Program-made: the position numbers and the translations under genes
Shown here: one piece after another, positions 4,429 through 28,732 of the stretch
How the letters are laid out: each line of letters starts with the position of its first letter
Position numbering within the stretch: position 1 is the first letter of the stretch
DNA from: Pseudotamlana agarivorans
GTDB lineage: Bacteria; Bacteroidota; Bacteroidia; Flavobacteriales; Flavobacteriaceae
Direction of reading: 5' to 3'
Assembly (NCBI RefSeq): GCF_001642835.1
Contig: NZ_LXEI01000002.1
Coordinates: 372,001-436,000 of the forward strand
DNA: 64,000 nucleotides
The notes under the pieces: model-generated
Told to the model about the DNA's origin: nothing
The model's database searches: none
Seen by the model: only the letters and a program-made list of their open reading frames with translations

Positions 4429-4482
4429 TTTTCTATTTTTTAATATGTTTGTTAAAAATGTGACGTATATTGAGTTTTTTGA

Positions 4483-4532: not shown

Positions 4533-4562
4533 ATTGATAAAATAGGGGTGAGAACTTGACGT

Positions 4563-5156: not shown

Positions 5157-5159
5157 CCT

Positions 5160-6299
5160 ATGGCAAATGTTACTTTAAGGCACAAGAAAATTGCGAATGA
5201 TAAATTAAGTCTGTATTTAGATTTTTATCCACCTATAATTAATTCAAAAACGGGAAAGGAAACTAGACGTGAGTTTCTAAAATTACAGATTTATGAATTT
5301 CCGAAGTCAGATTTGGAAAAGCAACACAATAAGGAAACCATAGAATTTGCAGAACTTATTCGATCTAAGCGATTAATTCAAGTTAGAGATAAAGAATATG
5401 GGTTTAAAGACAATATGTTGTTTGATGTGAATTTTGTTGCTTTTTACGATACTGTTGTTGAAGAGTATTTAAATAAAGGAAGTTATAATAATTACTTATC
5501 ATGGAAAGCATCTTTAAACTATTTTAAGGCTTTTGCGGGTAGTAAAATTCAATCTCATAATCTGTCTGTTTTGCACCTAAAAAAATACCGACAGTTTTTA
5601 TTAAGCACTAAAAATTTAAGAACTAATAAAGGAAAGTTATCACGTAATACGGCTTCATCTTATTATAAGAAGTTTATTTATGTACTAAAGCAGGGGTATA
5701 AGCAAAACATTATAACATCTGATTTGTCCTTGCATGCTGAATATATTAAAGAAGAGGAGACGCATCGAGAATATTTAACAGAGGATGAGTTATCAGTACT
5801 TTGGAATACCGATGTTAAAATTGAAAAAGTTAAACATATGGCTGTTTTTTCGGCATTAACAGGTTTGCGTTTTGTTGATATTCAAAATCTAACTTGGGAA
5901 AATTTATATTCGGATAAACATCAAGGCGAATATGTGAAGCTGCAAGAGAAAAAAACTGGTAATATTCACAACCATCCCATTTCAAAAACGGCTTATAATA
6001 TCTTAAAGAAACAAGATACTGAATCTGGTTTTATTTTTGGAGATATTAAATATTATCAAATTGTGAGACCACTAAATGATTGGATTAAAAAGTCTGGTAT
6101 TATTAAAAAAATATCATTTCATAATTTTAGACATAGTTATGCAACACTCCAACTAGCCAATGGTACAGATATTTATACGGTATCAAAATTATTAGGTCAT
6201 AAAAATGTTTCAACCACACAGATTTATACTAAAGTTATGGATAGAAATAAAATTGAAGCTGCAAATCGAATAAACTTGGATTTAGATGGATTATCATAA
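5160..6299 (+). CDS. Tyrosine recombinase (integrase)
   Basis: This 379-residue site-specific recombinase is presumed to insert the element at mnmE. The N-terminal 100 residues form a Bacteroidota-type arm-binding region. A SAM-like core-binding domain covers about 100-195, and the catalytic domain follows. Catalytic residues visible are Arg237 (ALTGLRFVD), a lysine in the EKKTGN hairpin, His321 and Arg324 (HNFRHSYAT), His347 (LLGHKN) and the nucleophile Tyr356 (QIYTKV). All are intact, so the enzyme should be active. It follows the HTH gene by 3 bases and overlaps the next gene by 14. The SGI1-type target is known for other recombinases of this superfamily; the use of mnmE here is shown by the flanking repeats. 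Confidence 0.95.
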   Translation: MANVTLRHKKIANDKLSLYLDFYPPIINSKTGKETRREFLKLQIYEFPKSDLEKQHNKETIEFAELIRSKRLIQVRDKEYGFKDNMLFDVNFVAFYDTVVEEYLNKGSYNNYLSWKASLNYFKAFAGSKIQSHNLSVLHLKKYRQFLLSTKNLRTNKGKLSRNTASSYYKKFIYVLKQGYKQNIITSDLSLHAEYIKEEETHREYLTEDELSVLWNTDVKIEKVKHMAVFSALTGLRFVDIQNLTWENLYSDKHQGEYVKLQEKKTGNIHNHPISKTAYNILKKQDTESGFIFGDIKYYQIVRPLNDWIKKSGIIKKISFHNFRHSYATLQLANGTDIYTVSKLLGHKNVSTTQIYTKVMDRNKIEAANRINLDLDGLS

Positions 6300-10080: not shown

Positions 10081-12336
10081 ATGGAAGAAATTGTACTTTC
10101 GAAAGAACAGGAAAAAGCGATTAATTATAATAAGACTGGTGCATATGCTATAAAAGGAATTGCCGGTAGTGGTAAAACAACGGTTGGTTTGCATAGGGTT
10201 CCATTTTTAGCATCAAAATGTGTAAGCGGGGAAAAAATCCTTGTGGTTACTTTTCACAAAATTCTTATAAATTATCTCGAGCACCTTATAGAGAAAGAAA
10301 ATTCCAAAAAAACCGAGGATATCTTTCATACAGGTAATGTTTGTGATTTTAGAAGTATAGATAGTTTAGTATATGGAGTATATCAAAAATTCAGGAGGCA
10401 GAATTCAGAGCATAAACATTATCAAAGATTACCCGAAAAAATTTCCAATGACATAAACTTAAAAGATGTTTTTAAGATAGCGCTCGATTCAGTAAGCGCT
10501 AAATATCCAAGTCTTAAATCGTACAACAGAGATGAATTTTTGAAAGACGAGGTTGATTACATAAATAATTGTGGTATTAGTACGGTAAAGGAATACCAGG
10601 TTTTTTCCCGAAGTGGACGTAATAGATTTACTGAAACCCGAATTGAACTTCAAAAAAAATCAAACATTAGGGAAGCCATTTTCCAACTTCGTAGAAAATA
10701 TAACAATTTACTTATTAATGAAGGTTTGATAGATTGGCCGGTAATGCGTTTGTTGGCATTAAAACAAGTAACAGATAATCCTCCTAAACAATATACTCAT
10801 ATTGTGATAGATGAGTGTCAGGATATGGATCGTACTCAACTAGATTTCTTAAAAAACTATTTGGTTGATAGGCCAAACGCTTCAGCCACATTTTTGTATG
10901 ATAATACACAAAGCATATATAAAAGCTCTTGGCTGGGTAATGGACACAGTTTTAAATCCTTGGGTGTTGACATTAAAGGCCGAAGCAAAATTTTAAAGCA
11001 CAACTTTCGTACTACTTATGAAATACAAGAAGCAGCACAATCGTTAATTGTAGGTAACGAGCTTATAACACAAGAAATTGAACCGGTACTTATTAACCGA
11101 TCAGGTACTAAGCCATTTTGGGCACATTGCAATAGTTTTGAACATCAGGTTGATTATATCTACGACATTATAAAAACGCATAGCGAAATTTTAAATTTTA
11201 ATGATATAATAGTAACCGCTCGTACCTGGAACCATGTAAGTAAACTCAATGACGCATTACGGAAAAAGGGTGTTGATTGCGGAATTCTAAAATCAGGAGA
11301 TGATTCTATAAAAAAGAATCAAGTACGCATAATGACCGTTCACAGTTCCAAAGGTCTAGAGAGCGAAGTGGTAATTATGGCCGATTTAAACGAAGGTGTG
11401 TTTCCTTGGAACCCTAAAAGTAAGGCAGATATTGTTAGAGAATTGAAACTAGTGTATGTGGGAATGACGCGTGCCTCTAAGCACCTTTACCTCACTTCTT
11501 ATGGTAAAGCTTCAATATTTTTTGATTCAATAAATCATAAGACATTAGATATTGTTGATTTACTAAATTATCGGGAATTTCAGCCAGTTCATGATAAGGA
11601 TTTAATGAAGAAAATGTCTACTATTAAAAGTCAACTTATGGAAGTGTTGGAAAATGCAACTGATCTTAATGCAAGTGTACAGACGAAGGAAGATTATGAA
11701 GAGCGTCGGACTGTAAATATGCAGATGCAACATCAGCTTGCAATATTTCGTCAGCAATTGATAGAATTAAAAGAGGAAGTGCCGGCTAATACTTCAATTC
11801 ATGACTTTTATAATAACCTTTGGAATCAGTGCGAATGTGGGATTGAGGATGAAATGAGTAAGTTATTTAACTTTATTAATACACCTCTTGATTTAAAAGA
11901 ATGCATAAAAGACTTAAAGTATAGTTTTTATAATTTTCAAGAAAAAACAATAGAATCGATAGCCACGCCTGAATATGAATTAAAAGAAGCTAGTATAAAG
12001 CAAAAAGCAATCGAGAAAGATTGTGCTCCTTATATTACCTCTTATTCAAAAGCGCTTGAAATGGAGCTTAGAAATTTAGTCAGAAAAGAAAAGTTTAATG
12101 ATACATGTGAAAAAACAGGGGGGCTAAGCCTATATAAAATGTTAAATATTCTTGAGAAGAAGGAAGATCCCTATAAATTATTGGTTGAAATGTTGAGAAG
12201 TGTTGACTTTAGAAGAAAACGAAATAGTGCGACACATTATGAAGTCATTAAGCACCATGAAGTATTGCCCATACAAGAAAAATTAATGAAACAGGATGGC
12301 GTTTTTGATTTGTTAAACGATTTATTGAACGACTAA
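10081..12336 (+). CDS. UvrD/Rep-like helicase with HEPN-like C-terminus
   Basis: This 751-residue protein has an SF1A helicase core in its first 480 residues. Motifs visible are I (GIAGSGKTT), Ia (LVVTFHK), II (VIDECQDMD), IV (LKHNFRTTYEI), V (MTVHSSKGLESEVVIM) and VI (LVYVGMTRAS). The core is compact, with reduced 1B and 2B insertions. The last 250 residues are helical and unrelated to UvrD. They end with KRNSATHYE, in which Arg714-Asn-x3-His719 fits the R-x4-6-H signature of HEPN ribonuclease domains. The next gene, encoding a TerD-domain protein, starts on the last base of the stop codon (TAATG), so translation is coupled. A role in defence against foreign DNA is inferred from cargo position and partners. 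The HEPN reading is tentative. Confidence 0.8.
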   Translation: MEEIVLSKEQEKAINYNKTGAYAIKGIAGSGKTTVGLHRVPFLASKCVSGEKILVVTFHKILINYLEHLIEKENSKKTEDIFHTGNVCDFRSIDSLVYGVYQKFRRQNSEHKHYQRLPEKISNDINLKDVFKIALDSVSAKYPSLKSYNRDEFLKDEVDYINNCGISTVKEYQVFSRSGRNRFTETRIELQKKSNIREAIFQLRRKYNNLLINEGLIDWPVMRLLALKQVTDNPPKQYTHIVIDECQDMDRTQLDFLKNYLVDRPNASATFLYDNTQSIYKSSWLGNGHSFKSLGVDIKGRSKILKHNFRTTYEIQEAAQSLIVGNELITQEIEPVLINRSGTKPFWAHCNSFEHQVDYIYDIIKTHSEILNFNDIIVTARTWNHVSKLNDALRKKGVDCGILKSGDDSIKKNQVRIMTVHSSKGLESEVVIMADLNEGVFPWNPKSKADIVRELKLVYVGMTRASKHLYLTSYGKASIFFDSINHKTLDIVDLLNYREFQPVHDKDLMKKMSTIKSQLMEVLENATDLNASVQTKEDYEERRTVNMQMQHQLAIFRQQLIELKEEVPANTSIHDFYNNLWNQCECGIEDEMSKLFNFINTPLDLKECIKDLKYSFYNFQEKTIESIATPEYELKEASIKQKAIEKDCAPYITSYSKALEMELRNLVRKEKFNDTCEKTGGLSLYKMLNILEKKEDPYKLLVEMLRSVDFRRKRNSATHYEVIKHHEVLPIQEKLMKQDGVFDLLNDLLND

Positions 12337-12899
12337 TGGATAGAAAACTTAATTGTAATCAAGTAATTATTGGTATAAACTGGGGAGCGATTTTTGAAAG
12401 GGGGTGGTTTGAATCAGAACAACGAGTCGGTGTTGACTTGGACCTTTGCTGCTTTTTGCTTGATAGTGATCAAAACACAAAAGAAATCCTTAACTGGGAA
12501 AATTCAAGCTCCATTTGGGGCAGTATAAGTAACGACGATATGGAAGGCGATATGGAAGGTAATGACCAAAAAGATAATGAATGGCTTACACTTAACTTAA
12601 ATCAAGTAAATAATAACTTCGAGTTACATATTAGTATTAGCAATTATAGTGAGAAGAGCTTGAGAAAACTTTCTCATTTCGATTATCGCATCTATACTGG
12701 TCATCCCAATGAGGTGAATAAAAGCTTTTATTTTAAAGATTTAAAACATAGTAACCTCAATGATACTTCAAAAGGGGTTTATCTGGGGCGAATAAAAAAA
12801 ATAGACGGGATATGGCAATTCAGCACTATGGAAACTCAGTTGGAAGCTTGTGATGCCGGACAACAGATTGAGCAAATTTTATCAATAGTTACAAAATGA
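12336..12899 (+). CDS. TerD-domain protein
   Basis: This 187-residue protein is of the TerD/TerE fold, a calcium-binding beta-sandwich family first linked to tellurite and phage resistance. Family landmarks are the early GINWG, the VDLDLCCFLLD strand, the acidic calcium-binding segment GDMEGNDQKDNEW, and the closing GIWQFSTME strand. Unlike typical ter loci there is no TerB, TerC or TerY nearby; instead it sits between a helicase and a DNA-processing machine. Start and stop overlap both neighbours (TAATG upstream, ATGA downstream), so it belongs tightly to this operon. I infer a regulatory or calcium-responsive sensor role for the helicase system. The family call is fairly sure, the role is not. 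Confidence 0.78.
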   Translation: MDRKLNCNQVIIGINWGAIFERGWFESEQRVGVDLDLCCFLLDSDQNTKEILNWENSSSIWGSISNDDMEGDMEGNDQKDNEWLTLNLNQVNNNFELHISISNYSEKSLRKLSHFDYRIYTGHPNEVNKSFYFKDLKHSNLNDTSKGVYLGRIKKIDGIWQFSTMETQLEACDAGQQIEQILSIVTK

Positions 12900-13229: not shown

Positions 13230-16200
13230 ATGCAATTATCAAAGCTACTTAAACATTACAAACTCAACGTACAGCAGCTAAAACTTATCCTTGAGCGCAA
13301 AAGTATTATCCACGATTTTAGAGCAACAACAACAGTTCCCGATGAATGGAACCAATTACTTAGCGAGTATACCGGCATTGAGTCTATGTTAACTGATAAA
13401 CAAGTGGAGAGTCAGATTATAGTACCTGCAAACATATCCGAGTGTATACAAAAAACAGAACAACCTTTGGTAAATGATGTCTTTGTAGCCTACGTAAAAT
13501 TTGTTGCTGATGATAATTCTCATGGCTTTGTTAAGCGTATTGACAATATAGCAAAAATAAAGCAAGTTGATTTTCGTATAAAGAATGAACTAGACTATGT
13601 GTTAGGTATTGATATAAAGGATTTAAAAAGAGGCCAATTAGTTTTGTGTGCTTCGTCAAGTGATTCAAATAATCGAGGGAAAGCAAAGTCTGCACAGTTG
13701 GTAAGTAGTGTCTTTACCGGGATTATCCATAAACAGCCTTCAGCTATCGATTTCACTATGATAGACACTGTTGAAACGAATTTCACGATTAGTTTGAGTT
13801 GCAATACAGAAAAGCAGGCTGAGTTGTTAGAATATGCCACTTTAGAGTTGTTTTATAATAAGAAAAAAGTATATAATAGATATTCAAGGTCGAGTTTAAA
13901 ATGGTTTTTTACTTTTGAATTAGCCAAGGGGGAAGTGAATGAAGAAGCGGTTGAATTAGGAATTAAAAGTCAGGTTGAAAATATATTAACTAAATTTACA
14001 CTCAACAAAACCGATAAATACCTAATTGATGCTTATAGAAGTATCGTTGACCAAGGAATGTTTTCTGCCAGGCTTTCTGAACTCTTTATCCAAGAATTTG
14101 AATTAGGCACCAGTTTTGAAAGTGTTGATAAATTAAGCAAATTCGTTGATAAATGGAATACGCTTGATAACAGCTTATTGGATAATGAACTGCTTAAAAC
14201 AAAGGTGGATACCAGCATCCTATTTGAATATTGGAAACAAGGAGGTTTGTCATTTAATTACTGGGGGTGGCATTTAGTCGGCATTGTTATAGATTATTAC
14301 AAAGGAATAGAGGTAGAGAGTCAGCTAAATCTAGTTTACAAAGGCAACATCCAAGATACAAGTATTACTATATTACAAGAATCTTTAGATTTTTATTTTA
14401 GTAAAATAGGCCTTATCAATGATGCTTTACATTATAATAACCTCCATACCATAATATCTTTTCTGCCTTTAAAATCTCGAAGAGTATTACACGAAAAACT
14501 ATACTTTATAATTAATCCAGACCTACAATTTAAAGTTTGGTTGAAAGACACAAGGCTTGATTTTACAGAGGGAGTAAATAATGTGCTAGTTGAAAAGCTA
14601 GAATTTGAACTTAAGAAGGAAGAACTAGGTGACGAGATAATACAATTAGTTGGAGTAGCTAAAGAGCATATAGATCCAAAAAAGTATAGGGAAATAACTT
14701 CTCGTAATTTGATAAATGAAATAAGCTTCGGCAAATGCTTCAAAACAGAAACCAGTATTTGTAATTTCATTATAAAATGGAATACTATTAATGAAACTAT
14801 ATTAAACCATGAGCTACTCAAGAATAAAATAAATGCAGATTTATTATTTGATAATTGGAAAGAAGGTTTTTTACCTTTTAATTTTTATGGAGATTTATTA
14901 GTAGAACACTTTTTACAGCACTTTGATACCGAGAATATACCTAATGCCCTCCATGATATTTTTAAAGGGGAGGTAAACGAGGAGTCTTATAATGATTTTG
15001 AAGTATCGCTTCAATACTACTTTTCCAATTGCAGGGATATAGATACGCAGAACCTTTTCAATAGCTTAAAAGCATTTATTGCCTATCTGCCTGAGAAATT
15101 CCGAGCTGATAACCTGGCTCAAGCCTATTTAAAACTAACACCAAAGCTTCAAATAGAGAATTGGTTACAAGATCAGAATTTAGATTTTCCTCAAAAGGCT
15201 GCCGTACGTTACATGGCATCTTTTGAAGTTGAGCAGCAAGAGCAATTATTACAACACATTGAGGATAAGTTTTTACCTGATGTGTTGAATGAGCTACATG
15301 AAATTAAAAACGAGGCATTGCTTAAAAGGCTCTTGGAGTTGGTGGTATACCCAAGGATTACAGCGTTTAATGCTATAAGCTTCGACCTTGAAGTGAACCC
15401 AACTACGAAAGAAATTCTAGAACTCGCATTTGGAGATGAAAAGCAATGGGAGAAGTGTGTTCATAAAGACAATATGCCGATTTCATTAAATTCATTAGAG
15501 GCCTTAACCAAGGATAACAACAAACTGTTTATTGGGCACAACGCTACCGAATTTGATTGTCCCATTCTGGAAAAACACAACATTTATATTTCACCCAACA
15601 AGCTTTGGGATACCATGCTAATTGAGATGCTGCTAAGTCCCGAGTTTATGACGTTTGCCTTAAAAACCGTACATCACGCTATTGATGATGCTAAATTGAC
15701 TCACTGTCTTTTTATTAATCAGTTACTTCGTCTGGTAAAAATATCTGAAAGTGACTTTGAGCTCATAATTGCTTATTTCCCCACAGCGATATCTGAAAAA
15801 ATAAAAATATTTAAGAATACACTGGCTTTAAACTGGCTACCAGTAAATTTCCTATTCAGTGAACGGAATGAATTTTACAGACCCCAACCTAAGGCTAATC
15901 CTGTTTTAACAAGGTTGAAAGAAGAACTAAGTAAACATTGTGATAAAACAAAATTAATTATAGCACCCCAAGTATACGAAAAGGAACTGCTTAGGGTTAG
16001 TAATATAGTCTGTAATTTCATTGATACTGACGAAGACTATAGGCTGTTAAGCCAAAGTAAGGTCGATGAATTGACAGATGAAAATGATTGGAGTTTTATC
16101 GTTTTGCAACGTTATTTTAACTACTGTAAAGTAGAACAAATAGAACCCTATTGGGGGAATTTAGCTGTAGCCATAAAAATGAGACTATATAATACACCTG

Positions 16201-18032
16201 GTATCGATTTTATTTTGGATAAAGCTAATGATGAAATACATTGGGAAAGCAGTAAAACTTATTTTACAGCTGTAAGTAGTTTGAAACAATTTGCCAGGCA
16301 AATTGATGAGTTAGAAAAACTCGAATTATTTATACTCGATCCCGATTTATTATCGGTTTCGAACAAAGAGCTATTAAGGGAAATAAATATTGATAATTTG
16401 CTCAGCAATGATAGGGCTAATCAGCTTTGGATGAAATTTTCGGGAGGGCAAAGTATTGTTGGTTTATCAAAAGAGCAAGCTGTAAATTATCTCGATTCTG
16501 GTGATACGGTATTCTCACATTATTGGATAGAGAAATACCAGTTTGAACGTTATCGAATATATGGTACCCACAATTGGGAAGAGGAAATTACAAAATTAAA
16601 AAGCTGTAATAGCCATTTAATTTATCCGGATGTAAACGATACTCATAATGGGCAAGTTCAATTTGCAGTTGTAAAAAGCACAACAGCCAAAAGCAGCAAG
16701 GTGGTGCGTTACAATCCTGAAACCATATATCGCTCACGTTATTGGGTATATCAAAAAATGCTATTGCAACAAATTGATTCAAGCAAACCTTTAATATTGC
16801 TCATTCAACATTGCGACGAAATAAAATATCTAAAAAACTACTTTGCAAGCTTAGGCTACTTTATACCTTATGGGGATATGCCCATCGGCCGTCAGTTGGA
16901 GCGTTTACATACGGATAAAAGTCATCGAAAAATGCTCATTGCTCCTCTTTATCAAATAGGTGCAATTTTACACGCCAATTACCTTGGAGCATTAACTGTG
17001 GTTATCGATAGCTTTTATTTAGCAGAAAAGTGCCATACTGCGCAAGGAACCTCGCTGTTTAAGCGTATGGAAACCCAGTCCGCCGGACAAAATTCTGAAA
17101 ATGAAGAAACTGAAGAGAAAAACATGACTTTTAAGTCGAATTTACCTTACGAAAAAGACACCTTTTTTCTGTTAAAGCTTCAATTACCCTATATAAATTA
17201 TTTGCGTACTATTATAAATGCTAACGACAGTGAACATCAAATTTGGTTGCTCGACCCTCGTATTACTGATTTTCCAGAATTGGGAGAAACCTGGAAAGCC
17301 AAACGGAATTACATATCTATTTGGAGCGATCCGGAGAGTTATGAAGCCGATGCAAAAGAAGCCGATGAGCATATTAACAGTGTTAAGCCAAGTAATGAAA
17401 TACCATATGAGCACAATGAGGTAAAGAGTATTTTATCAAAAGCTTTTCTGGGTGAAGAGTTCGATTGGTACGACTATCAGCATGAATATCTAGATAAAAT
17501 AATTCCGGGCAAGGAGGATTTTTTAATCAGCTTGCCTACCGGGGGAGGAAAATCTTTACTGTTTCAGGCTCCTTCCATTTTCAAAAGTACTTTTACCAAC
17601 CGATTAACATTGGTAATTACTCCTCTCAAGGCACTTATGGAAGATCAAGTAAAAGATCTATGGCAGAAGGGGTTTGTTGGTAGTGTTGAATACATTAACT
17701 CAGATCGTAGCAGCGATGTTCAGTTAATATATCGTAGCCTGGCTGGAGGAGAGTTGTCACTTTTGTACATTACTCCTGAACGGTTTAGAAGTCGTGGATT
17801 TCTTAATGCCTTAAATATGCGTTTACAATCAGATGGAGGTCTTGAGTATGTTGTTTTTGATGAGGCTCACTGTGTATCTCAATGGGGTAATGAGTTTCGT
17901 CCCGATTATTTAAACGGGGCGAAAGTAGTTTGTCAAAAACGACAACAATGTGACCAAGACTTTCCGATTTTATTATTCTCCGCTACCGTTTCGGAAAAAG
18001 TTTATAACGATTTTAATGTGATTTTTTCATGA
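13230..18032 (+). CDS. Exonuclease / RecQ-type helicase first half (giant DNA-processing protein)
   Basis: This is a 1600-residue protein. Residues about 81-165 look like a cold-shock/OB domain (FVAYVKFV ... HGFVKRI ... RGKAKSAQLV). Two diverged repeats of about 208 residues follow (W309 NTLDNSLLDNELLK and W517 NTINETILNHELLK). A DEDDh 3'-5' exonuclease domain starts near 718 (FDLEV, then GHNATEFDCPIL, then HHAIDDAKLT). The C-terminus is the first RecA domain of a RecQ-like SF2 helicase, with PTGGGKS near 1437, DEAHCVSQWG near 1544 and FSATV. It stops right after motif III, exactly where the second RecA domain should begin. That domain opens the next gene, which overlaps by 4 bases (ATGA). 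Alone it would lack the arginine-finger half of the ATPase. It is probably a DNA-degrading defence enzyme; this is inferred. Confidence 0.85.
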   Translation: MQLSKLLKHYKLNVQQLKLILERKSIIHDFRATTTVPDEWNQLLSEYTGIESMLTDKQVESQIIVPANISECIQKTEQPLVNDVFVAYVKFVADDNSHGFVKRIDNIAKIKQVDFRIKNELDYVLGIDIKDLKRGQLVLCASSSDSNNRGKAKSAQLVSSVFTGIIHKQPSAIDFTMIDTVETNFTISLSCNTEKQAELLEYATLELFYNKKKVYNRYSRSSLKWFFTFELAKGEVNEEAVELGIKSQVENILTKFTLNKTDKYLIDAYRSIVDQGMFSARLSELFIQEFELGTSFESVDKLSKFVDKWNTLDNSLLDNELLKTKVDTSILFEYWKQGGLSFNYWGWHLVGIVIDYYKGIEVESQLNLVYKGNIQDTSITILQESLDFYFSKIGLINDALHYNNLHTIISFLPLKSRRVLHEKLYFIINPDLQFKVWLKDTRLDFTEGVNNVLVEKLEFELKKEELGDEIIQLVGVAKEHIDPKKYREITSRNLINEISFGKCFKTETSICNFIIKWNTINETILNHELLKNKINADLLFDNWKEGFLPFNFYGDLLVEHFLQHFDTENIPNALHDIFKGEVNEESYNDFEVSLQYYFSNCRDIDTQNLFNSLKAFIAYLPEKFRADNLAQAYLKLTPKLQIENWLQDQNLDFPQKAAVRYMASFEVEQQEQLLQHIEDKFLPDVLNELHEIKNEALLKRLLELVVYPRITAFNAISFDLEVNPTTKEILELAFGDEKQWEKCVHKDNMPISLNSLEALTKDNNKLFIGHNATEFDCPILEKHNIYISPNKLWDTMLIEMLLSPEFMTFALKTVHHAIDDAKLTHCLFINQLLRLVKISESDFELIIAYFPTAISEKIKIFKNTLALNWLPVNFLFSERNEFYRPQPKANPVLTRLKEELSKHCDKTKLIIAPQVYEKELLRVSNIVCNFIDTDEDYRLLSQSKVDELTDENDWSFIVLQRYFNYCKVEQIEPYWGNLAVAIKMRLYNTPGIDFILDKANDEIHWESSKTYFTAVSSLKQFARQIDELEKLELFILDPDLLSVSNKELLREINIDNLLSNDRANQLWMKFSGGQSIVGLSKEQAVNYLDSGDTVFSHYWIEKYQFERYRIYGTHNWEEEITKLKSCNSHLIYPDVNDTHNGQVQFAVVKSTTAKSSKVVRYNPETIYRSRYWVYQKMLLQQIDSSKPLILLIQHCDEIKYLKNYFASLGYFIPYGDMPIGRQLERLHTDKSHRKMLIAPLYQIGAILHANYLGALTVVIDSFYLAEKCHTAQGTSLFKRMETQSAGQNSENEETEEKNMTFKSNLPYEKDTFFLLKLQLPYINYLRTIINANDSEHQIWLLDPRITDFPELGETWKAKRNYISIWSDPESYEADAKEADEHINSVKPSNEIPYEHNEVKSILSKAFLGEEFDWYDYQHEYLDKIIPGKEDFLISLPTGGGKSLLFQAPSIFKSTFTNRLTLVITPLKALMEDQVKDLWQKGFVGSVEYINSDRSSDVQLIYRSLAGGELSLLYITPERFRSRGFLNALNMRLQSDGGLEYVVFDEAHCVSQWGNEFRPDYLNGAKVVCQKRQQCDQDFPILLFSATVSEKVYNDFNVIFS

Positions 18033-21000
18033 TAAGCCGATTAGAAAACAAGGAGGTATATAATCCTATACGCGACCATATTAATATTAATTTTGAACAG
18101 GTAGATTCAGTAGATGATGCACTTGCTTTTATCTCTAATGATTTATCAAGAAAAGGTTTTGACCCCGAAAAAAGTCGTGTTCTAATTTTTGTTCCTACTC
18201 GTAAAAAGACAGAAAATATTGCCGAGCTTTTAAGTATAAAATTAAATGATACAAGTGCAGCTTACGGAAATAAAATAGATTTCTACCATGCCGGTCTTGA
18301 TGGTATCGAACGCGAAGAAAAATACGATCAGTTTAATGCCGGTGATGTCGTAATATTAGTAGCTACCAAGGCGTTTGGTATGGGTATGGATATTAAGAAT
18401 ATTCATTACATCTACCACGTGGGGCCTGCTTCAACATTTGAAGACTACTTGCAAGAGGTGGGAAGGGCTGGACGCCATAAAGGAATGCTGGAAGAGGCTG
18501 GGTTTTCAACTCAAAATCCAATTCAAACAATATGTCTGTTTTTGAAAGATGATTTTAAAAAACTCAAGGATAAATTACATGAATCGCAAATAACCTGGAC
18601 AAATTTAAATGAAGTTAGGGAAATCGTATTTGACTATGTAAAACAATTTAAAACCCTAGAAGTTGATGAAGAACAGCCTTTTGCTTTGCCACTCGATTTG
18701 TTAGAACAATCGGATGAATTTAATGATAAATTTAATAAAGATACGTTTTTTAGAGTTTCTCTCTTTTGGTTGGAAAAGTTAGAACGTATTAAACTAGGAG
18801 TTTATACACCTACTCAGTTACCAATTCAATTAATGAATGATAACAGCAACTCTATAGAAAAGGTCGGAGAAGATAAATTGAAACAGCAAATTAATTCCTT
18901 ACTAAATGGACTTAACGAATACCAAAAGGATAACTTTCCAAGTTCACAATTTGTAATGATTGAGATGAACAAACTCAAAGCGTTTGTTCCAGACCTATCA
19001 CCAGGGAAATTATTAGGCTTATTATTTCGTGTACAAAACCTTGACCTTATCCGTATAGAACGAACAATTACACTTGAGCCAACAAAAACACGAATCGATG
19101 AGTTAAAGGAATGGGAAGAAATGAAGTGGTGTCATGATACAAAATCACCTATATTGGAAGCTCTCTTTGAACTCGCTCATGAGATTTTAAATTCAACCTC
19201 TTTGGGAGATCAAAGAAGTTTTGATGGAGCCTATTTAGATCACTTGAGGAAGGAAGTAACTACTAATCATTTTATACCTGATAATATTTTTTGGAAAGAA
19301 ACAAAAGGCAAACATGAGAAGGAAATAAGTAAGGACGAAATTGCTAAAATACTTGCTGAAGATTTTATTACTAAACGATCAAAATTTGCTCTTAAGCTTA
19401 TAAGCTTTTTGCCAAAAATCCGTCATAAGACGGTTATTCAAATTAATCCAGATACCAAACACCCTGAAATAACCCAGCTGGTTTATAATGGTTATCAAAA
19501 ACATGACGAATGGAAAGCTCTACTGAATGATTTTAAGGATAAGCTATATGTCTTAATTCAAAACATTTCAAAAGAATTTATTATTGAGAATAAAAAACGC
19601 TTTAATATTGTTGACTTAATTGTTAAACTAGACATTATTGAGCAGGAAGAAGATTATCTTCAAAAGTTAGTTTTTATAGTCAAAGCACTAGCTTATCTGA
19701 AGGGCTATGGTAGCCTTGTTCCGATGGGGATAGAATTATTTATTAAAGATACGACTTCATTTGCTGAAAAAGATCAATCCTCAAACGATTATCAGGTTTT
19801 CAACGAGTTTAACGAAAGTAATCAAATGCGTGAACTACGATTATTAGCTCTTGAGTGTTTGTCAAGGATTAATACTGAAGATTATGATACCTACATAAAA
19901 GATTACTTTAGGGGAGCAAGTGTCAGTGATATTATAAGGCTTCTGGAGGATAAACTAGGTGAAGAGCATGAGAATTTAAAAGCTTTCAGAATAGAAGCCT
20001 TAAACAAAGCTAAGGAAGAACTAAATGAAGCGCAACGTAAGGTTTATGATACTAATGTAAACCAAAACCTACAGGTGATAGCCGGTCCAGGTAGTGGAAA
20101 AACACATACTTTAACCTTAAGGGTTGCAAAACTTATTCAAGAGGAGAAAGTTAACCCCGACAATATTTTGGTTCTGGCCTATAACCGCGCAGTTGTGGTT
20201 GAATTAAAAGAGCGCCTTGAACGACTGTTTCGTGCTCTTGGCTATGGCAAATTAATTAAGCGCCTAAAAGTATATACGTTTCACGGATTTTGTAAATTTT
20301 GCTTAAAAAATGAACTAGATAACCTAGATTTTGATAGATGGACAACTACTTTTATCCGAAAAGCACGTAATGAACCAGGGCTGGTAGCTCAGAAGTTGGG
20401 TAATGTTAAATATGTTTTTGTAGATGAATTTCAGGATATTACCAGCGAACGTATGGAGCTATTAAGCTTGATTGCGAATCCTGAAAACACCAAAGTATGC
20501 GTTATTGGTGATCCCAACCAAAGTATATATGGTTATGAAAGAGCAGCTGTAGGCGATACTATGAATCCTAAACCATTCTATGATAGATTTAAAGAGATAT
20601 ATAAACCACAAGAGTTAAACTTGAATATCAACTATAGATCCTACCCCGAAATACTTAGGAATGCAGAGCAATTATTAAGTTTGAATAAATCAAAATTTAT
20701 TTTACCACCATTAGTAGCAAATAAAGTACCCAAAAACAATGAGACTTACTGTCATATTATAAAATACGCAAAAGGAGAGCTTTCCTGGTTGGATTGGCTA
20801 AACGAGTTGATTGAAACGAAAGAAGACAGTGGTAGTAACAAGTACAGTCAAGTTGCCTTAATGTTTCGAACTAACGATGAAGTTTATAAGGCATTTAATA
20901 CTGTTAAAGAAAAAATGAAAAATGTTAGAATTCGTATTCAAGGAGGTAAGAGCTCTCCATATCGTTCGCGTGAGTTTTATTACTTTTTAAAATCGTTTGA

Positions 21001-21937
21001 AAGGATATCAGGACAGTTTGTTGAGTCCAGTTTGATTAAGTCTTTTGCAAAGGAGAAAGAATTATGTCTAGCTAGATTTCCCAATTGGGATAATTATTTA
21101 CTAAATCTTTTTCACTGTATTCTTATAGAATTTAGTCGTATTAAAGATGAAGATGCTACTTATGGAGAATTGATAGATTTTGTGGAAGATATCGCTAATC
21201 GAGATGATGGTCAATTCGGGAAAATTTACGATAATAATATAAGAAGCATAGAAGGTGAAAAAGCAGAGCAAGAAATTGTGATTACCACTATGCACAAAGT
21301 AAAAGGAATAGAATATGACGCCGTAATTATACCACCTTCGTTTGCTAACCTGCCTCCTAGATTAGGAAGAGATAATGCATACACTGAAAAACAAATAGAA
21401 GAAGACATTGAGGAAGAACGACGCTTGCTTTATGTTGCTTATACGAGGGCTAAATATAAATTAATTGTTATAAAGTATGATAGAGAACATTCTTTAGACA
21501 AAGGAGAAATATATAAATTCCCTGATGACACCATGAATAGATTGGGTGTTAAAATACCAGAAGGAATTGATAAGATGAATATCTCTTGGGGTGCACAAGA
21601 TTATCAAGAAACTAGACTCAAGGTATTTAATCATTTACGTGATAGTATTAAGCTAGGAGCTCCGGTGCGATTAATTAAGAAAATTAATGGTTTATACACT
21701 TTTTGGGAGGTAGTATGTAACAACAGAATAAGTGGTCAAATAACATCGAGATATTATCCAAATACGAATAAAACAGAATTGAACGGATTCTTGGTATCAT
21801 CAATTGAAAGATATACTTATGTTGAGACCTTAAAGTATGATGAGAAACACAGTACAAACTATGCAAGCAGATGGTGTGAGTCGTCTAAGAGCAGAGGATA
21901 TATTTATTTAGTAGATTTTGCTGGTTTTGGAAAATAA
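18029..21937 (+). CDS. RecQ second half fused to UvrD-like helicase
   Basis: This 1302-residue protein begins with RecQ RecA-domain 2: LIFVPTRKK, ATKAFGMGMD and DYLQEVGRAGR (motif VI near residue 145). A long helical middle of unknown fold follows. A complete SF1 UvrD-type helicase then starts near 675: GPGSGKT (about 686), VDEFQDI (799), GDPNQSIYGY, NYRSYPEI, TTMHKVKGIEYD and LLYVAYTRAK (about 1133). The C-terminal 130 residues form a small beta-rich domain with no obvious match. The gene starts inside the end of the preceding one (ATGA). The two polypeptides together would form one exonuclease-RecQ-UvrD machine of about 2900 residues, either as a genuine two-subunit enzyme or through a recent one-base change in a T6 tract. 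Confidence 0.85.
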   Translation: MISRLENKEVYNPIRDHININFEQVDSVDDALAFISNDLSRKGFDPEKSRVLIFVPTRKKTENIAELLSIKLNDTSAAYGNKIDFYHAGLDGIEREEKYDQFNAGDVVILVATKAFGMGMDIKNIHYIYHVGPASTFEDYLQEVGRAGRHKGMLEEAGFSTQNPIQTICLFLKDDFKKLKDKLHESQITWTNLNEVREIVFDYVKQFKTLEVDEEQPFALPLDLLEQSDEFNDKFNKDTFFRVSLFWLEKLERIKLGVYTPTQLPIQLMNDNSNSIEKVGEDKLKQQINSLLNGLNEYQKDNFPSSQFVMIEMNKLKAFVPDLSPGKLLGLLFRVQNLDLIRIERTITLEPTKTRIDELKEWEEMKWCHDTKSPILEALFELAHEILNSTSLGDQRSFDGAYLDHLRKEVTTNHFIPDNIFWKETKGKHEKEISKDEIAKILAEDFITKRSKFALKLISFLPKIRHKTVIQINPDTKHPEITQLVYNGYQKHDEWKALLNDFKDKLYVLIQNISKEFIIENKKRFNIVDLIVKLDIIEQEEDYLQKLVFIVKALAYLKGYGSLVPMGIELFIKDTTSFAEKDQSSNDYQVFNEFNESNQMRELRLLALECLSRINTEDYDTYIKDYFRGASVSDIIRLLEDKLGEEHENLKAFRIEALNKAKEELNEAQRKVYDTNVNQNLQVIAGPGSGKTHTLTLRVAKLIQEEKVNPDNILVLAYNRAVVVELKERLERLFRALGYGKLIKRLKVYTFHGFCKFCLKNELDNLDFDRWTTTFIRKARNEPGLVAQKLGNVKYVFVDEFQDITSERMELLSLIANPENTKVCVIGDPNQSIYGYERAAVGDTMNPKPFYDRFKEIYKPQELNLNINYRSYPEILRNAEQLLSLNKSKFILPPLVANKVPKNNETYCHIIKYAKGELSWLDWLNELIETKEDSGSNKYSQVALMFRTNDEVYKAFNTVKEKMKNVRIRIQGGKSSPYRSREFYYFLKSFERISGQFVESSLIKSFAKEKELCLARFPNWDNYLLNLFHCILIEFSRIKDEDATYGELIDFVEDIANRDDGQFGKIYDNNIRSIEGEKAEQEIVITTMHKVKGIEYDAVIIPPSFANLPPRLGRDNAYTEKQIEEDIEEERRLLYVAYTRAKYKLIVIKYDREHSLDKGEIYKFPDDTMNRLGVKIPEGIDKMNISWGAQDYQETRLKVFNHLRDSIKLGAPVRLIKKINGLYTFWEVVCNNRISGQITSRYYPNTNKTELNGFLVSSIERYTYVETLKYDEKHSTNYASRWCESSKSRGYIYLVDFAGFGK

Positions 21938-23010: not shown

Positions 23011-26000
23011 ATGTCAAATATGATCGTTGATTTTATAAAAGAAAAAGCCATTTTTCTTAATAATTTAAGTAAAGACGAAGAAGCGCTTTTTAATTATATA
23101 AATACTAACCAAGATAATTTAGAAGAGATTATCCAACAGTATAAACCAGAAACTGTATTCAAACCCGTTAATACCTTACGTTTCTTAATAGCTAATGAGC
23201 TTAAAAAAGGGAATAAGGTTGATGTTAAAATTCTAGATGCACTAAAACTAGCCATTGAAGAAAGAGATATTTCAGTTTACTATAATTTTAATGAAACTGT
23301 AAATCAAAGTTTATCTAATTACAAGCAGAGTAAAAAAGGTATGTTTCCTAATTGGGGGAACGCTTTTAATGTATTATTTCCTTTTTTGTACAATAACGCA
23401 GTAAATGCAGAAGTAAATATACAACTCGAAAGGTTGGCAGATGAGGTTATTCAAGCCAATCAACTGGAAAATGTATCTAAACATATTGTTAGTTTTCTAG
23501 GATCGAACAACTATGGATCTGACCATACTTGGGTTGCAATAATTCCAGAAACGGCTCCTAGTGTGCAATATGCTTATCAAATATTTTTCACTATAAATAA
23601 AAACGGTGTAGTTGGAGGCTTGCATAAAGGACACAGTTTAACCAAACAAGTATTTAGTAACCAAGACTTGCAGTTCAATAATTGGGAGAATTATATAGAG
23701 CATACACAACAGACTAAGGAGGAGTGGTTACAATTAAACTCAGCGGTTAATTTCATATTATTAAATGATGAAAAGGCATTAATAAAAGCAGTAAAGCAAG
23801 TTGATGCAGTAGCATTAGCTGATTATTTCAAGGTGCTTGATAAATTAAAAGAAGATTTAGATATTCAAGATGAAGAAAAGCTCGTGTTTAGCACCTCAAG
23901 TAATCGTTTAAGCTTTCATGTAGGAAAGCGGTATTGTTTGAATGTTAATAAAGCACTTTTCGATTATATTTCGTATATCGAACTAGAAGAAGGTAATTCA
24001 GATAGGGAAACATTTACAGCTTCTGAAACGGCATACCTGTATAAAAACAGAAACTCAGGAGACGTTTATAAAAATTATGAGGTTATTAAATCTGCTATTG
24101 AAATTGAAATAGAGAGAGACAACCATGCATTGGCAAAATCGTACGATAATAGTGCTTTTAGGAAAGCTGTTTTTAATTTAGCATATCGAAATAATATCAT
24201 TCAGAATAATGAAATTAAAGGAAAACCTAATAATTATTGGGGATTAGGATTTAATTCAAATATAGACAGATTGAATCTCTTTAAAAAAGAAGGGTATTGG
24301 CAAGCAATAGATTATAAAAAAGGAGATACTCGAGCAGCGGCAAAAAGGGCTAGAAAGTTATTTGAGAAGATTCAAACAGGAGATTATGTTATTATTAAGG
24401 GGTATGGTGGTTCACACGATTTAATTGTTCATTATAAAGGTGAAGTAGTATCAAAAGATGAAGAAAATGAACGTTTAGAGCTAAAAGAAATAAAAGGAGC
24501 TCTTTATAAAGGTAAAGCACCAAGAGGAACTGGTGCTGGTAATTGGCACGATACAATTGTACAAGTAAAGAGGCAGGAAGATATTAAATTATTGTTTGAA
24601 AATATGGTAAACATTAAAACAGAGTTTATTGAATGGTTGATTTTGAATTCTAGTGCTGATTTTTTCAATAAAAAATCGGATACCCTAAGTGAAAATTTAG
24701 ACTATTATAACACCTTTTTTAATATCGACATTTTTAATGTTTCAAAAAGTAGTTATAAAAATGTAATAGCAGAAATTGAGAATATTGCTTATAACGATGA
24801 CACAAGTGCTTTCTTTAAATTTAGTAAAGTTGAGAGTAATCATGTGCCAAGGGCAATTATTGGTCGTGCAAATTATTTTAAGTTTTTAGGGGATTATTTT
24901 AACGAATCTGATGAAATAAAAAATGAAGATGATACTTATATTGGTTATACAGCCCCACTAAACCAAATATTATACGGCCCACCGGGAACAGGAAAAACCT
25001 ATAATACGGTTTTAGAAGCAGCAAAGATTATAGAGCAGAATGAAACTTTAAGCTATGCTGAAGCTCTACAGGTTTTTAACACCCATTTGGGTAAGCGCAT
25101 AGAATTTATAACGTTCCATCAAAATTATAGTTATGAGGATTTTGTTCAGGGCTTGAGACCAGATGTAGATCAGCTAGCTTTAAGTTTTAATAGGGAAGAT
25201 GGTTTATTTGCAAAAATAGCTACTAATGCACTTTTTGAGTATTATAAAGTACATCAAAAGGAAAGTAAATTAAAGAAATCTAAAGAAGATGTTAGTATTG
25301 ATATTAATGAAGCTTACATCGAATTTTTTAAATCTTTAACTGTTGGTCAAGAGTTTGAAACCAAAACTGGGATGACCGTTAAGGTGGTTAGTTTTACAGA
25401 TAGACAAAATATTGAATTTAAGCCAGATAATGGTGTGAAATCTTATTTGGTTTCAGGAAATCGTTTATTGAAATTATATGAAGTCTTCCCAGATATTAAT
25501 AAAATTGAACGCGTACATGAAGATATTAGGGAAGCCATTGGTGGGTGTAATTCTTCAATATACTATGTGGCATTAAGAGAGTTTATTTCATTTTTAGACA
25601 GCTATAAAGAAACCGTTGATACCTTTGAGGATAAAGATGAGGCAGATTTCGATTATGATGATATCTCTTATCAACGTAAAAAGGACCTGCTTACTAATGT
25701 GAATTTATCCGATTTACGCAAAGTAGATCTGCATAAGGTTCCTAAGTATGTAATTATTATAGATGAGATAAACAGGGCTAATATTTCGCGAGTTTTTGGA
25801 GAGTTAATTACGCTTTTGGAGCATGATAAACGTTCTCATGGTCAAATTCCTTTAAAAGTAAAACTACCTTCTAGTGAAAATTTTATTGTGCCTTCAAACT
25901 TATATGTTATTGGCACTATGAATACCGCCGATAAATCGATTGCTTTATTAGATATAGCTTTAAGGCGACGCTTCGAATTTGTGGCAATGTATCCAAAATA

Positions 26001-26268
26001 TGAATTAACCGATAGAGAAGTTCATAAAAAGGAATTTTTAAAAACACTGAATAATGAGATTGTAGCCTCTGGAAAAGGACATGATTTTACTATTGGTCAT
26101 GCTTATTTTATGGGTGATGATTTCAATTTTAAAAGTGTTATTAATAATAAAGTGATTCCGCTATTGTTAGAATATTTTATGAATGATGAAAAGGAAGTAC
26201 AACGTGTACTTGCTAATTCGGGAATAAAAGTTGAAGGTTGGCCAATGGAAATGATAACGAATGATTAA
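23011..26268 (+). CDS. mcrB: McrB-type AAA+ GTPase with N-terminal sensor domains
   Basis: This 1085-residue protein is the motor subunit of a modification-dependent (type IV) restriction system. The C-terminal AAA+ domain has Walker A GPPGTGKT (about residue 656), HQNYSYEDFVQGLRP, Walker B/IDEINRANISR (about 918) and the McrB signature MNTADKSIALLDIALRRRF (about 970). A roughly 90-residue beta-rich insertion sits between the first and second AAA motifs. The N-terminal 640 residues are far larger than in E. coli McrB. About 150-215 resembles the MrcB_N (DUF3578) domain (DHTWVAIIPETAPSVQYAYQ). About 430-525 (GDYVIIKGYGGSHDLIVHYKGEV) looks like an EVE/PUA-type base reader. The stop overlaps the McrC start by 8 bases. 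The modified base it reads is unknown. Confidence 0.9.
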   Translation: MSNMIVDFIKEKAIFLNNLSKDEEALFNYINTNQDNLEEIIQQYKPETVFKPVNTLRFLIANELKKGNKVDVKILDALKLAIEERDISVYYNFNETVNQSLSNYKQSKKGMFPNWGNAFNVLFPFLYNNAVNAEVNIQLERLADEVIQANQLENVSKHIVSFLGSNNYGSDHTWVAIIPETAPSVQYAYQIFFTINKNGVVGGLHKGHSLTKQVFSNQDLQFNNWENYIEHTQQTKEEWLQLNSAVNFILLNDEKALIKAVKQVDAVALADYFKVLDKLKEDLDIQDEEKLVFSTSSNRLSFHVGKRYCLNVNKALFDYISYIELEEGNSDRETFTASETAYLYKNRNSGDVYKNYEVIKSAIEIEIERDNHALAKSYDNSAFRKAVFNLAYRNNIIQNNEIKGKPNNYWGLGFNSNIDRLNLFKKEGYWQAIDYKKGDTRAAAKRARKLFEKIQTGDYVIIKGYGGSHDLIVHYKGEVVSKDEENERLELKEIKGALYKGKAPRGTGAGNWHDTIVQVKRQEDIKLLFENMVNIKTEFIEWLILNSSADFFNKKSDTLSENLDYYNTFFNIDIFNVSKSSYKNVIAEIENIAYNDDTSAFFKFSKVESNHVPRAIIGRANYFKFLGDYFNESDEIKNEDDTYIGYTAPLNQILYGPPGTGKTYNTVLEAAKIIEQNETLSYAEALQVFNTHLGKRIEFITFHQNYSYEDFVQGLRPDVDQLALSFNREDGLFAKIATNALFEYYKVHQKESKLKKSKEDVSIDINEAYIEFFKSLTVGQEFETKTGMTVKVVSFTDRQNIEFKPDNGVKSYLVSGNRLLKLYEVFPDINKIERVHEDIREAIGGCNSSIYYVALREFISFLDSYKETVDTFEDKDEADFDYDDISYQRKKDLLTNVNLSDLRKVDLHKVPKYVIIIDEINRANISRVFGELITLLEHDKRSHGQIPLKVKLPSSENFIVPSNLYVIGTMNTADKSIALLDIALRRRFEFVAMYPKYELTDREVHKKEFLKTLNNEIVASGKGHDFTIGHAYFMGDDFNFKSVINNKVIPLLLEYFMNDEKEVQRVLANSGIKVEGWPMEMITND

Positions 26269-27619
26269 CCTTTTTGAATATAAAAATACAGCACCCTTTC
26301 CTGAAAACCACTTTGAAAACCTTGAAGTTTTCTTGGATGAGGTTTGGGCAAAAAGAGAAAAATCTAATTATTATACCGAGGATGAAAACAGGGAAGAGGT
26401 ACAACGGTTTATTCAGTTTTTGCATAAGTCCAAAACTTTGAAGTCCAACAAATATGTTGGTGTTATTCATTTCGAAGGCGAAACCTTAAATTTATTACCT
26501 AAGATATTTTTTACAGGAAGTGCTCCTCAACCAAAACATGTAAAAGCAATAAGCACCCACATTTTATGGTGGTTGAGTTATTGCAGAAAAATTAAGTTCC
26601 CAAATTATCTTTCAGGTTTATCGAGCACCCAATCAGATTTTTTTGAAATTCTTATTTATCTATTCAGTAAATACACGAGAGAGCTTCTAAATTCTTCTAT
26701 TTATCAAAAGTATATTGAAGTAAATAGAGAGCTTTCTTTTGTAAAAGGACGTATTAACTTTAATAGTTACATCGCAGCCAACCTAGCAACGGCGCGACAC
26801 CATAAAGTGAGTTGTACTTATGATTCTTTTGAAATGGATAATGAATTTAATCGCTGTGTAAAATTTGTTTCAAAATTGTTGCTAGGAGTAAGTCAGGATT
26901 ATCAAAATAAGCGTTTTTTAAACGATATTATTTTTATTCTGGACGATGTTAAAGATATTCGAGTTTCTGCTGATAAAATGAAACGCATGTCTTTTAACCC
27001 CATGTTTTCAAACTTTGAAACCATTAGAGATTATTGCGTGTTGTTTTTAGACAATAGCGTGTCCTTTAATTATAAAAGTTCCATGAAGCTCTTTGCATTC
27101 CTATTACCCATGGAATATGTTTTTGAGGATTTTGTTTTTGGATTTATAGATAAGGAAATCGATGAGATAAAAGCAAAAAGTCAATTAGGAAACACCTACT
27201 TAGACGAAGAAACAAACTTTAAATTAAAACCAGATTTGTATTTGAGTTTTCTCGATAAAAAGGTTATTGCAGACACAAAGTACAAAATCGTTTATTCAGA
27301 TAGTACAGATCCTAAAAAAGGCATTTCACAAAATGATTTGTATCAAATGTTGGCTTATGCCGTGCGATTTGGAGTGTCTGAAATCGTGTTGTATTATCCC
27401 AATACGTTAAACCATGAGAATCCAGAAAGCTCGGAATTATCAATGGTTGATAGCTTGGCAGAGAATCAAAAAATTCATGTTAGATCATTTCAGTTACCAA
27501 TAATTAATTTTGATTTGTTTAAAGACGATTACATTAGCAAAACATCATTAATTTTAGATTTTGAAGAAACCAGAGTAAGATTAATTGGCGAAATTAGAAA
27601 GTCTTTGAGAGCTGATTGA
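26261..27619 (+). CDS. mcrC: McrC-type nuclease subunit
   Basis: This 452-residue protein is the partner of McrB and supplies the endonuclease. The N-terminal part (MINLFEYKNTAPF ... GVIHFEGETLNLLPKIF) is the McrB-interacting beta region, and the middle is helical. The C-terminal PD-(D/E)xK domain shows Asp325 (LKPDLYL) and Asp338-Thr-Lys340 (IADTKYKI), followed by ISQNDLYQMLAYAVRF, which is the conserved helix of the fold. All catalytic residues are present, so the system looks functional. The 8-base overlap with the McrB gene implies coupled translation. It is the last gene of the element; the right end lies 250 bases downstream. Confidence 0.9.
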   Translation: MINLFEYKNTAPFPENHFENLEVFLDEVWAKREKSNYYTEDENREEVQRFIQFLHKSKTLKSNKYVGVIHFEGETLNLLPKIFFTGSAPQPKHVKAISTHILWWLSYCRKIKFPNYLSGLSSTQSDFFEILIYLFSKYTRELLNSSIYQKYIEVNRELSFVKGRINFNSYIAANLATARHHKVSCTYDSFEMDNEFNRCVKFVSKLLLGVSQDYQNKRFLNDIIFILDDVKDIRVSADKMKRMSFNPMFSNFETIRDYCVLFLDNSVSFNYKSSMKLFAFLLPMEYVFEDFVFGFIDKEIDEIKAKSQLGNTYLDEETNFKLKPDLYLSFLDKKVIADTKYKIVYSDSTDPKKGISQNDLYQMLAYAVRFGVSEIVLYYPNTLNHENPESSELSMVDSLAENQKIHVRSFQLPIINFDLFKDDYISKTSLILDFEETRVRLIGEIRKSLRAD

Positions 27620-27943: not shown

Positions 27944-28732
27944 CTAAACGAGCATTCCTAATTTTAATTTAGCCTCTTCGTAACCCATTTGGAAGATGTC
28001 TTCGGCATGAGTTTTTGAAAACACATCATGTTTCCCTAATTCGCTAGGAGCTATAAATACATCACAGGCCTTAAATTTTGCCTCTGATGCATTGACACGT
28101 GAAATTCTATAAGCCCGATCGATAACAGCTTTAGTATTTGAAAGTGCTTCAATTGAAGTTTCTAAAAGTGAATTTAAGAATACACCTATAATGGTGTCAC
28201 AAGGTGTTAATATAGGTTCAATAGGGAAGTTGTTCGTTACACCACCATCACACAATAGCATGTTATTTAAAGGAATTGGCGTGAAAACACCAGGAACCGC
28301 TGCCGAGGCAATAATAGGTTTTATGATTGGCCCAGAATTAAAAAAGCAGGTTTTACCTTGAATTAAATCGGTTGTGGCAACGTACATAGGAATGTTTAAA
28401 TGCTCAAAGCTGTCTTCTTTTAAATGTGACGTTAATAGTCTTTCAATTTTAGCACCATCTATTAAACCAGGTTTTTTTAAGGTATAATTGTGGTAAGAAA
28501 ACAATTCAGTTTTCGTAAAAACATCAAATATCTGGTCACAAGAATTTCCGGCTGCATATAGAGAACCTACAATAGCACCTGCACTAGTTCCAGAAATATA
28601 ATCTGGTTTGATCCCTAACTCTTCCATGGCCTTTAAAACGCCAATGTGTGAAATCCCTCGGTAACCGCCACCAGATAACACTAGCCCTGTTGTATGTGAT
28701 CGTTTCATGAATGAAAATATATTTAATTTCAA
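27944..28732 (-). CDS. Patatin-like phospholipase
   Basis: This 262-residue cytoplasmic or membrane-associated serine lipase belongs to the patatin/RssA family. It has the oxyanion loop GGGYRG (residues 21-26), the nucleophile elbow GTSAG with Ser50, and the catalytic Asp162 in CDGGVTNNFP. The catalytic dyad is complete. The start at 28732 gives a short leader; a second Met at residue 9 (MKRSHTTGLVLSGGG) is an alternative start and fits the family's usual N-terminus better. It is the first chromosomal gene to the right of the element and points towards it. The natural substrate is unknown; most relatives hydrolyse phospholipid or acyl esters. Confidence 0.9.
   Translation of the reverse strand: MKLNIFSFMKRSHTTGLVLSGGGYRGISHIGVLKAMEELGIKPDYISGTSAGAIVGSLYAAGNSCDQIFDVFTKTELFSYHNYTLKKPGLIDGAKIERLLTSHLKEDSFEHLNIPMYVATTDLIQGKTCFFNSGPIIKPIIASAAVPGVFTPIPLNNMLLCDGGVTNNFPIEPILTPCDTIIGVFLNSLLETSIEALSNTKAVIDRAYRISRVNASEAKFKACDVFIAPSELGKHDVFSKTHAEDIFQMGYEEAKLKLGMLV

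Follow-up and report, generated by a model that had tools for sequence, protein, structure and literature searches.

A predicted RecQ helicase motor divided between two overlapping genes, probably by an old gene fission that selection has preserved

Is a helicase motor whose two RecA domains are encoded by separate, overlapping genes a broken enzyme, a fusion controlled by frameshifting or phase variation, or a genuine two-part machine? The question was raised by a preliminary description of a 64,000-nucleotide stretch of the Pseudotamlana agarivorans genome (the window), in which two ORFs, here called A and B, share an ATGA that is both the start codon of B and the stop codon of A, next to a run of six T. 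All of these elements lie at the coordinates that it gave (Table 1). It had further placed the end of A just after RecQ motif III and motifs IV–VI in B, and this assignment is borne out by NCBIfam, by Pfam and by 8/8 members of an alignment of five split and three single-chain proteins. We consider it probable that the gene was split long ago and that selection has preserved the two-gene form, whose coupled subunits would build one RecQ ATPase in trans.

Table 1. Positions of the two genes, of their predicted domains and motifs, and of neighbouring mobile-element and restriction genes in the window
Feature	Position	Strand	Basis or remark
Tyrosine-recombinase integrase	5160..6299	+	Upstream; mobile-element context
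Gene A, 1600 aa: N-terminal region, DEDDh exonuclease, DinG/XPD-like region, RecQ RecA1 half	13230..18032	+	
Cold-shock-like (OB) segment, A residues ~85-150	13482..13679	+	Alignment by eye; weak
DEDDh-type exonuclease domain, A residues ~700-830	15327..15719	+	Motifs FDLE 718, GHNxxxFD 769, HxAxxD 815
DinG/XPD-like region, A 870-1395	15837..17414	+	AlphaFold model and Foldseek
RecA1 half of RecQ motor	17427..18029	+	Sequence matches, motifs
Motif I, PTGGGKS	17535-17555	+	RecA1 half, gene A
Motif II, DEAH	17859-17870	+	RecA1 half, gene A
Motif III, SAT	from 17979	+	RecA1 half, gene A
T6 tract at seam	18022..18027	+	Not conserved in other split members
ATGA, B start over A stop	18029..18032	+	
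Gene B, 1302 aa: RecQ RecA2 half, middle region, UvrD-type motor	18029..21937	+	
RecA2 half of RecQ motor	18161..18523	+	Sequence matches, motifs
Motif V, ATKAFGMGMD	18362-18391	+	RecA2 half, gene B
Motif VI, QEVGRAGR	18452-18475	+	RecA2 half, gene B
UvrD-type SF1 helicase motor, B residues ~660-1150	20006..21478	+	Motifs I, II, III, V, VI
McrB-like AAA ATPase and McrC	23011..27619	+	Downstream; context only

Pfam assigns DEAD to A residues 1415-1591 and Helicase_C to B residues 47-150, and the NCBIfam RecQ model TIGR01389 is matched by A 1399-1595 (model positions 2-180) and B 51-150 (model 227-318); since both sets of matches divide at the seam, the cut separates the RecA1 domain from the RecA2 domain. 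Throughout the alignment, the stretches that we take to be RecQ motifs I–III are found in the A part and those that we take to be motifs IV–VI in the B part, motif IV being scored by a loose pattern. Homology reaches the seam from both sides, as is seen when the window sequence (...IFS / MISRLEN) is set beside RFNGSINRLEN of the single-chain Taibaiella protein, and sequence searches of the PDB with both seam flanks returned RecQ-family chains as the best matches. The NCBIfam family scores were obtained for the two window halves scanned apart, and in this form they do not reach the cut-offs of recQ_fam (118.3 bits for A and 61.5 for B against 219.8) or recQ (129 and 76.1 bits against 640.2). 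Downstream of RecA2, Pfam found no match to the RecQ zinc-binding, RQC or HRDC domains in B at E 0.01, and none in the single-chain Taibaiella protein. A model of the motor of a single-chain relative was poor (mean pLDDT 55.4, 4 rows); the RecQ structures matched by a fold search with it may be taken as a hint only. The preliminary description had also held that neither chain contains a complete ATPase, which is correct for RecQ and for RecQ only, because B holds a UvrD-type SF1 motor of its own. What we take to be motifs I, II, III, V and VI of that motor recur in 8/8 aligned members, with variants of motifs I, V and VI in the genome designated G1034 (GPGTGKT, STMHKAKGLEYQ and VACSRA, respectively).

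Chain A carries further modules upstream of the RecQ half. DEDDh motifs (DxE, D, HxxxxD) are present in 8/8 aligned members, one with LDLE and one with GQN; the NCBIfam exonuclease/polymerase match in A is weak (E=7.6e-4, far under the cut-off) and Pfam gave no exonuclease match in A. By its motifs the exonuclease is of the DEDDh type, and we regard it as a putative nuclease. For A 690-1395, an AlphaFold model built from 7 rows (mean pLDDT 72.8) had DinG (6fwr), XPD (2vsf) and CasDinG (7xf0) as its best PDB matches in Foldseek, with E values of 7e-5 to 4e-4 and low TM-scores of 0.27-0.33 (for 6fwr, E=7e-5 with a TM-score of only 0.27), and a sequence search of the PDB with the DinG/XPD-like region gave no match. 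Because Walker A is absent from its invariant columns, this region is probably degenerate and devoid of ATPase activity. At the N-terminus, Pfam CSD had no match in the A protein of the window itself; it matched the Hymenobacter swuensis homologue (E=0.011, 16 bits) and a separate upstream gene of Rhodobacter (E=1.1e-5, 25.6 bits), in both cases under the 27-bit cut-off. As predicted from these matches, the full machine would comprise, in order, a cold-shock-like segment, a DEDDh exonuclease, a degenerate DinG/XPD-like region, the RecQ motor and the UvrD motor.

Among the nine homologous loci found, six share the split point, with the RecQ halves on two ORFs, and three encode both halves in one polypeptide, namely SI037 (2570 aa), Taibaiella (2625 aa) and genome G1018 (2712 aa). 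Fused forms, which the preliminary description had considered, do exist (3/9), while its proviso that all homologues might be one gene and this copy simply broken is at odds with the other 6/9. The intact split pairs (n=5) are those of the window, of genomes G189, G257 and G1034, and of pHsw1, a complete plasmid of H. swuensis that is annotated as two genes at this locus; the sixth split locus, on a plasmid of H. cellulosilyticus, has A and B broken further. That copy (L014:7818-15844) shows several extra frame breaks, indicating either a pseudogene or sequencing errors, and since it is broken elsewhere too, the family can decay. Among the intact pairs, identity in B is 32-55% (53% between the window and G189, ~32% between the window and G1034), and despite this divergence they keep all RecQ motifs, their adjacency and an overlap of 4-26 nt. 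The fact that distant relatives carry the same cut argues for a stable two-part machine and not a broken gene, and it is on these six loci that the true split helicase, one of several readings offered at the outset, has found its support.

The whole genomes with a match are five distinct ones (the window's own, G189, G257, G1018 and G1034), recovered in draws that overlap one another: 3/299 and the same 3/397 in family draws (own, G189, G257), 3/395 in a class draw (own, G1018, G1034), 1/395 in a phylum draw, 1/64 (G1018), 1/45 (G1034) and 1/376 (own) in order draws, and 1/1 (G189), 1/15 (G257) and 1/6 (own) in genus draws, the last two of which make the distribution sporadic, as for a mobile trait. 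In the large draws, the two best candidates per genome were scored at an E limit of 1e-50 or 1e-60, so that distant members may escape. Named records contributed the MAG loci SI037 and Taibaiella and the two Hymenobacter plasmids, a third match of the search that gave the two MAG loci being only a distant helicase. The genome of the window holds one full copy of the A–B locus. A phage or viral origin was rejected: a search of 50,697 phage records with B (E 1e-15) was without a match, two scans of viral contigs gave none in one and eight distant helicases in the other, and an exact back-translated pattern search for phage or viral copies returned 0 matches.

We propose that an ancestral single-chain exonuclease/RecQ/UvrD protein underwent fission in the RecA1/RecA2 linker of its RecQ motor, and that the two-gene form was then kept by selection. 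That the uncut motor is ancestral is likely, given that the more distant RecQ–UvrD proteins, from Rhodobacter sp. CZR27 (1774 aa) and the viral contig L021 (1647 aa), are single chains. Production of chains A and B would be coupled via termination–reinitiation at the overlap; overlapping genes can be translationally coupled, a coupling for which Bacteroidetes make little use of Shine–Dalgarno sequences (PMC6728339). Positions 17000-19000 of the window contain no terminator-like site, and the promoter-like sites there number only three, fewer than the shuffled mean and without exception on the minus strand; no tRNA was found in the 64-kb window and no Rfam match in positions 1-36000. The two chains could assemble through the RecA1/RecA2 face, docking like the lobes of one chain, and the RecQ ATP site would be formed in trans, with Walker A/B contributed by A and the motif VI arginine by B.

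The alternative that survives best is that the gene was split several times independently because the linker tolerates cuts, with no common benefit, a history that would be compatible with trans assembly and that we consider possible, if rather unlikely. The seams do differ in ways that such a history would produce: B lies in the -1 frame relative to A in the window, G189 and H. cellulosilyticus, where the overlap is the 4-nt ATGA, and in the +1 frame in G257, H. swuensis and G1034, where the overlaps are 26, 17 and 11 nt, respectively (the B starts of G257 and G1034 are ATG codons picked by homology, a choice on which their overlaps depend). Frames and overlaps can, however, drift after one fission. 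The trees point in both directions as well. When G1034 is left out, four split members stand on one side of a branch and three single-chain members on the other, with a support of 100/100; with the long-branched G1034 included, the best trees place it apart from the remaining split members, and the best tree needs two changes, or three with outgroups. Bootstrap trees that join all split members then make up 2% with outgroups and 14% and 24% without, but the AU test does not reject a single split group (p 0.311 with outgroups, 0.282 and 0.411 without). It should be noted that the outgroup, consisting of Rhodobacter and L021, was dropped from later trees on account of its very long branches, and that none of the trees includes H. 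cellulosilyticus, its genes being further broken.

A fused A–B might instead be produced in a fraction of translations, if programmed frameshifting or slippage in transcription occurred at the seam; this appears improbable. The window on its own would suit such a mechanism, with B in the -1 frame, the T6 directly preceding the A stop and four open codons of the B frame immediately before its ATG. Yet the six split loci are evenly divided between frame relations of -1 and +1 (three each), and the T-run just before the seam amounts to 6 in the window, 4 in G189, 3 in H. cellulosilyticus, 5 in G257 and 2 in H. swuensis and is absent in G1034, nor was a conserved slippery sequence seen by eye among the split loci. 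The T6 itself is not special: A and B of the window together contain 18 runs of six A or six T (7 T-runs and 11 A-runs) and none longer. Assignment to the programmed -1 frameshift genes was rejected, the constant frame relation and conserved slippery site of such genes being absent here, and the phase-variable or frameshift-controlled fusion envisaged in the preliminary description is therefore rejected as a mechanism shared by the split loci, though slippage may conceivably occur in this one genome.

It seems no more credible that the RecQ motor has been catalytically retired in split members, leaving only the exonuclease and UvrD parts to matter. The adjoining region of A already resembles a degenerate DinG/XPD helicase, and the single cut of the five intact pairs falls in the RecQ motor. 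Against this, the RecQ motifs are intact in 5/5 of these pairs, and the RecA1 and RecA2 halves are among the most conserved stretches: identity between split members is 49-76% in RecA1 and 48-64% in RecA2 compared with 38-60% in UvrD, and between single-chain members 52-83%, 50-67% and 44-57%, respectively. The retained motifs and the identity of RecA1 and RecA2 relative to UvrD indicate that split members show no decay of the RecQ motor. Finally, a recent inactivating frameshift or assembly error confined to this strain, suspected at first and nourished by a draft genome of 50 contigs, a homopolymer at the seam and the H. cellulosilyticus copy, which shows that breaks or misreadings can occur in loci of this kind, is very improbable in view of five other split records with the same seam, among them the complete H. 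swuensis plasmid, and of 1600 and 1302 codons that are otherwise open with motifs kept.

Returning to the fission kept by selection, the surroundings of the genes may suggest what the machine is for. Restriction or modification genes adjoin 5/9 loci, a raw count from a neighbour survey in which one gene was scanned for SI037 (no match) and the flanks of G1034 were left out. In G189, A and B lie between HsdM/HsdS and HsdR, together with a GIY-YIG gene, and G257 has the same gene set by similarity to that of G189 (HsdR 79%, HsdM 72%). A type I restriction locus hence encloses the split pair in two genera, in the order HsdM, HsdS, GIY-YIG/HARE-HTH gene, A, B, HsdR. McrB-like and McrC genes lie downstream of the pair in the window and upstream in Taibaiella, and G1018 has a DNA methylase, an SNF2-type helicase and DUF4391 upstream. 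By annotation, H. swuensis carries SNF2-related and AAA genes on the opposite strand, and upstream of the H. cellulosilyticus copy, which is outside the 5/9 count, genes for helicases, a DUF1998 protein and an HNH endonuclease are annotated. On the strength of the restriction–modification neighbours at 5/9 loci, we infer a role in defence, in which the A–B machine would act against foreign DNA.

Other genes of the window were noted in passing. Directly upstream of the pair, positions 10081-12899 (+) encode a UvrD-like helicase of 751 aa followed by a TerD-like protein of 187 aa with a 1-nt overlap. Farther downstream lie a patatin-like phospholipase (27944-28732, -), with matches to PADLOC 'Effector' phospholipases, and a 445-aa protein combining a DEDDh/RNase_T exonuclease with a GIY-YIG nuclease (28851-30188, -), which matches the PADLOC candidate PDC-S48 at E=1.7e-39. 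As for att-site repeats, no exact word of at least 15 bases is shared between positions 4001-5200 and the window beyond 6500. Two known defence families were considered for the pair and rejected: the Dpd protein DpdF, for which the halves, scanned apart, reached 98.6 and 41.5 bits with an NCBIfam cut-off of 550, and Gabija, for which the PADLOC GajB matches cover the generic UvrD motor only, with no GajA among the matches listed (9 proteins scanned; for B, the best 25 of 69 families).

Joined in one machine, the DEDDh exonuclease and the RecQ and UvrD motors would unwind DNA and degrade or otherwise process it, the substrate probably being foreign DNA cut by the neighbouring restriction systems. 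Assembly in trans could serve the RecQ motor as a safety catch, with the UvrD motor of B still able to work in the absence of A. This leads us to the tentative suggestion, held with distinctly less assurance than the fission itself, that the pair forms an obligate two-chain RecQ motor, with an ATP site that comes into being only on contact of the chains, as the safety catch of a mobile exonuclease–RecQ–UvrD machine that would join restriction systems in acting against the DNA of phages or plasmids.

To our knowledge, RecQ and other SF2 helicases have been treated as single chains with two tethered RecA domains. A natural cut kept over large divergence would show that the tether between RecA1 and RecA2 is dispensable, and the split and single-chain relatives could offer a ready system for studies of lobe assembly, closure and ATP hydrolysis. 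The RecA halves and motifs I–VI of A and B resemble by sequence those of established RecQ helicases (E. coli RecQ, 1oyw; RECQ1, RECQL5, BLM and WRN), whereas the motor is here placed on two polypeptides, has no RQC, zinc-binding or HRDC domain by Pfam, and is joined to exonuclease/DinG-like and UvrD parts. WRN, which is among the PDB matches of both halves, comes close in having a DEDD-type exonuclease upstream of a RecQ motor in one protein. The WRN exonuclease is of the DEDDy type, whereas A–B has the DEDDh motif, and the bacterial machine differs further in its additional DinG-like and UvrD parts and in being split.

With DinG and XPD, the top fold matches of A 690-1395, the likeness is confined to weak TM-scores of a predicted model; the region of A has no sequence match in the PDB and, to judge from the invariant columns, apparently no ATP site. 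The pairing of exonuclease and helicase in A resembles that of Bacillus, where B. subtilis DinG consists of a DEDD exonuclease and a helicase domain according to the available part of PMC12525004. RecQ is absent from the available part of an account of the YprA helicase (PMC12458937), and in the open-access literature no description of an exonuclease/DinG-like/RecQ/UvrD family, split or single-chain, was found among the matches listed. On a plasmid of Rhodobacter sp. CZR27, the RecQ and UvrD motors occur together as in A and B, in one chain (WP_096787916.1), but the cut lies elsewhere, the RecQ motor being whole and the exonuclease-like module encoded by a separate gene; this upstream gene, annotated as a cold-shock-domain protein, resembles A 756-815 over a short stretch (E=5.6e-6). 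The plasmid region (L034:6327-13728) reads as a CSD and exonuclease-like gene, a small gene and then the single RecQ–UvrD chain. Since the CSD/exonuclease-like part forms its own gene there, the wider family is cut at differing places. To the extent that Table 1 of PMC3655853 lists them, the nearest precedent for A–B is the split helicase genes of Nanoarchaeota, in which a large helicase-related protein (NEQ003–NEQ409) and reverse gyrase are each encoded by two genes; those splits differ from A–B in that the gene numbers are far apart, the genomes are those of reduced symbionts and the helicases are not RecQ.
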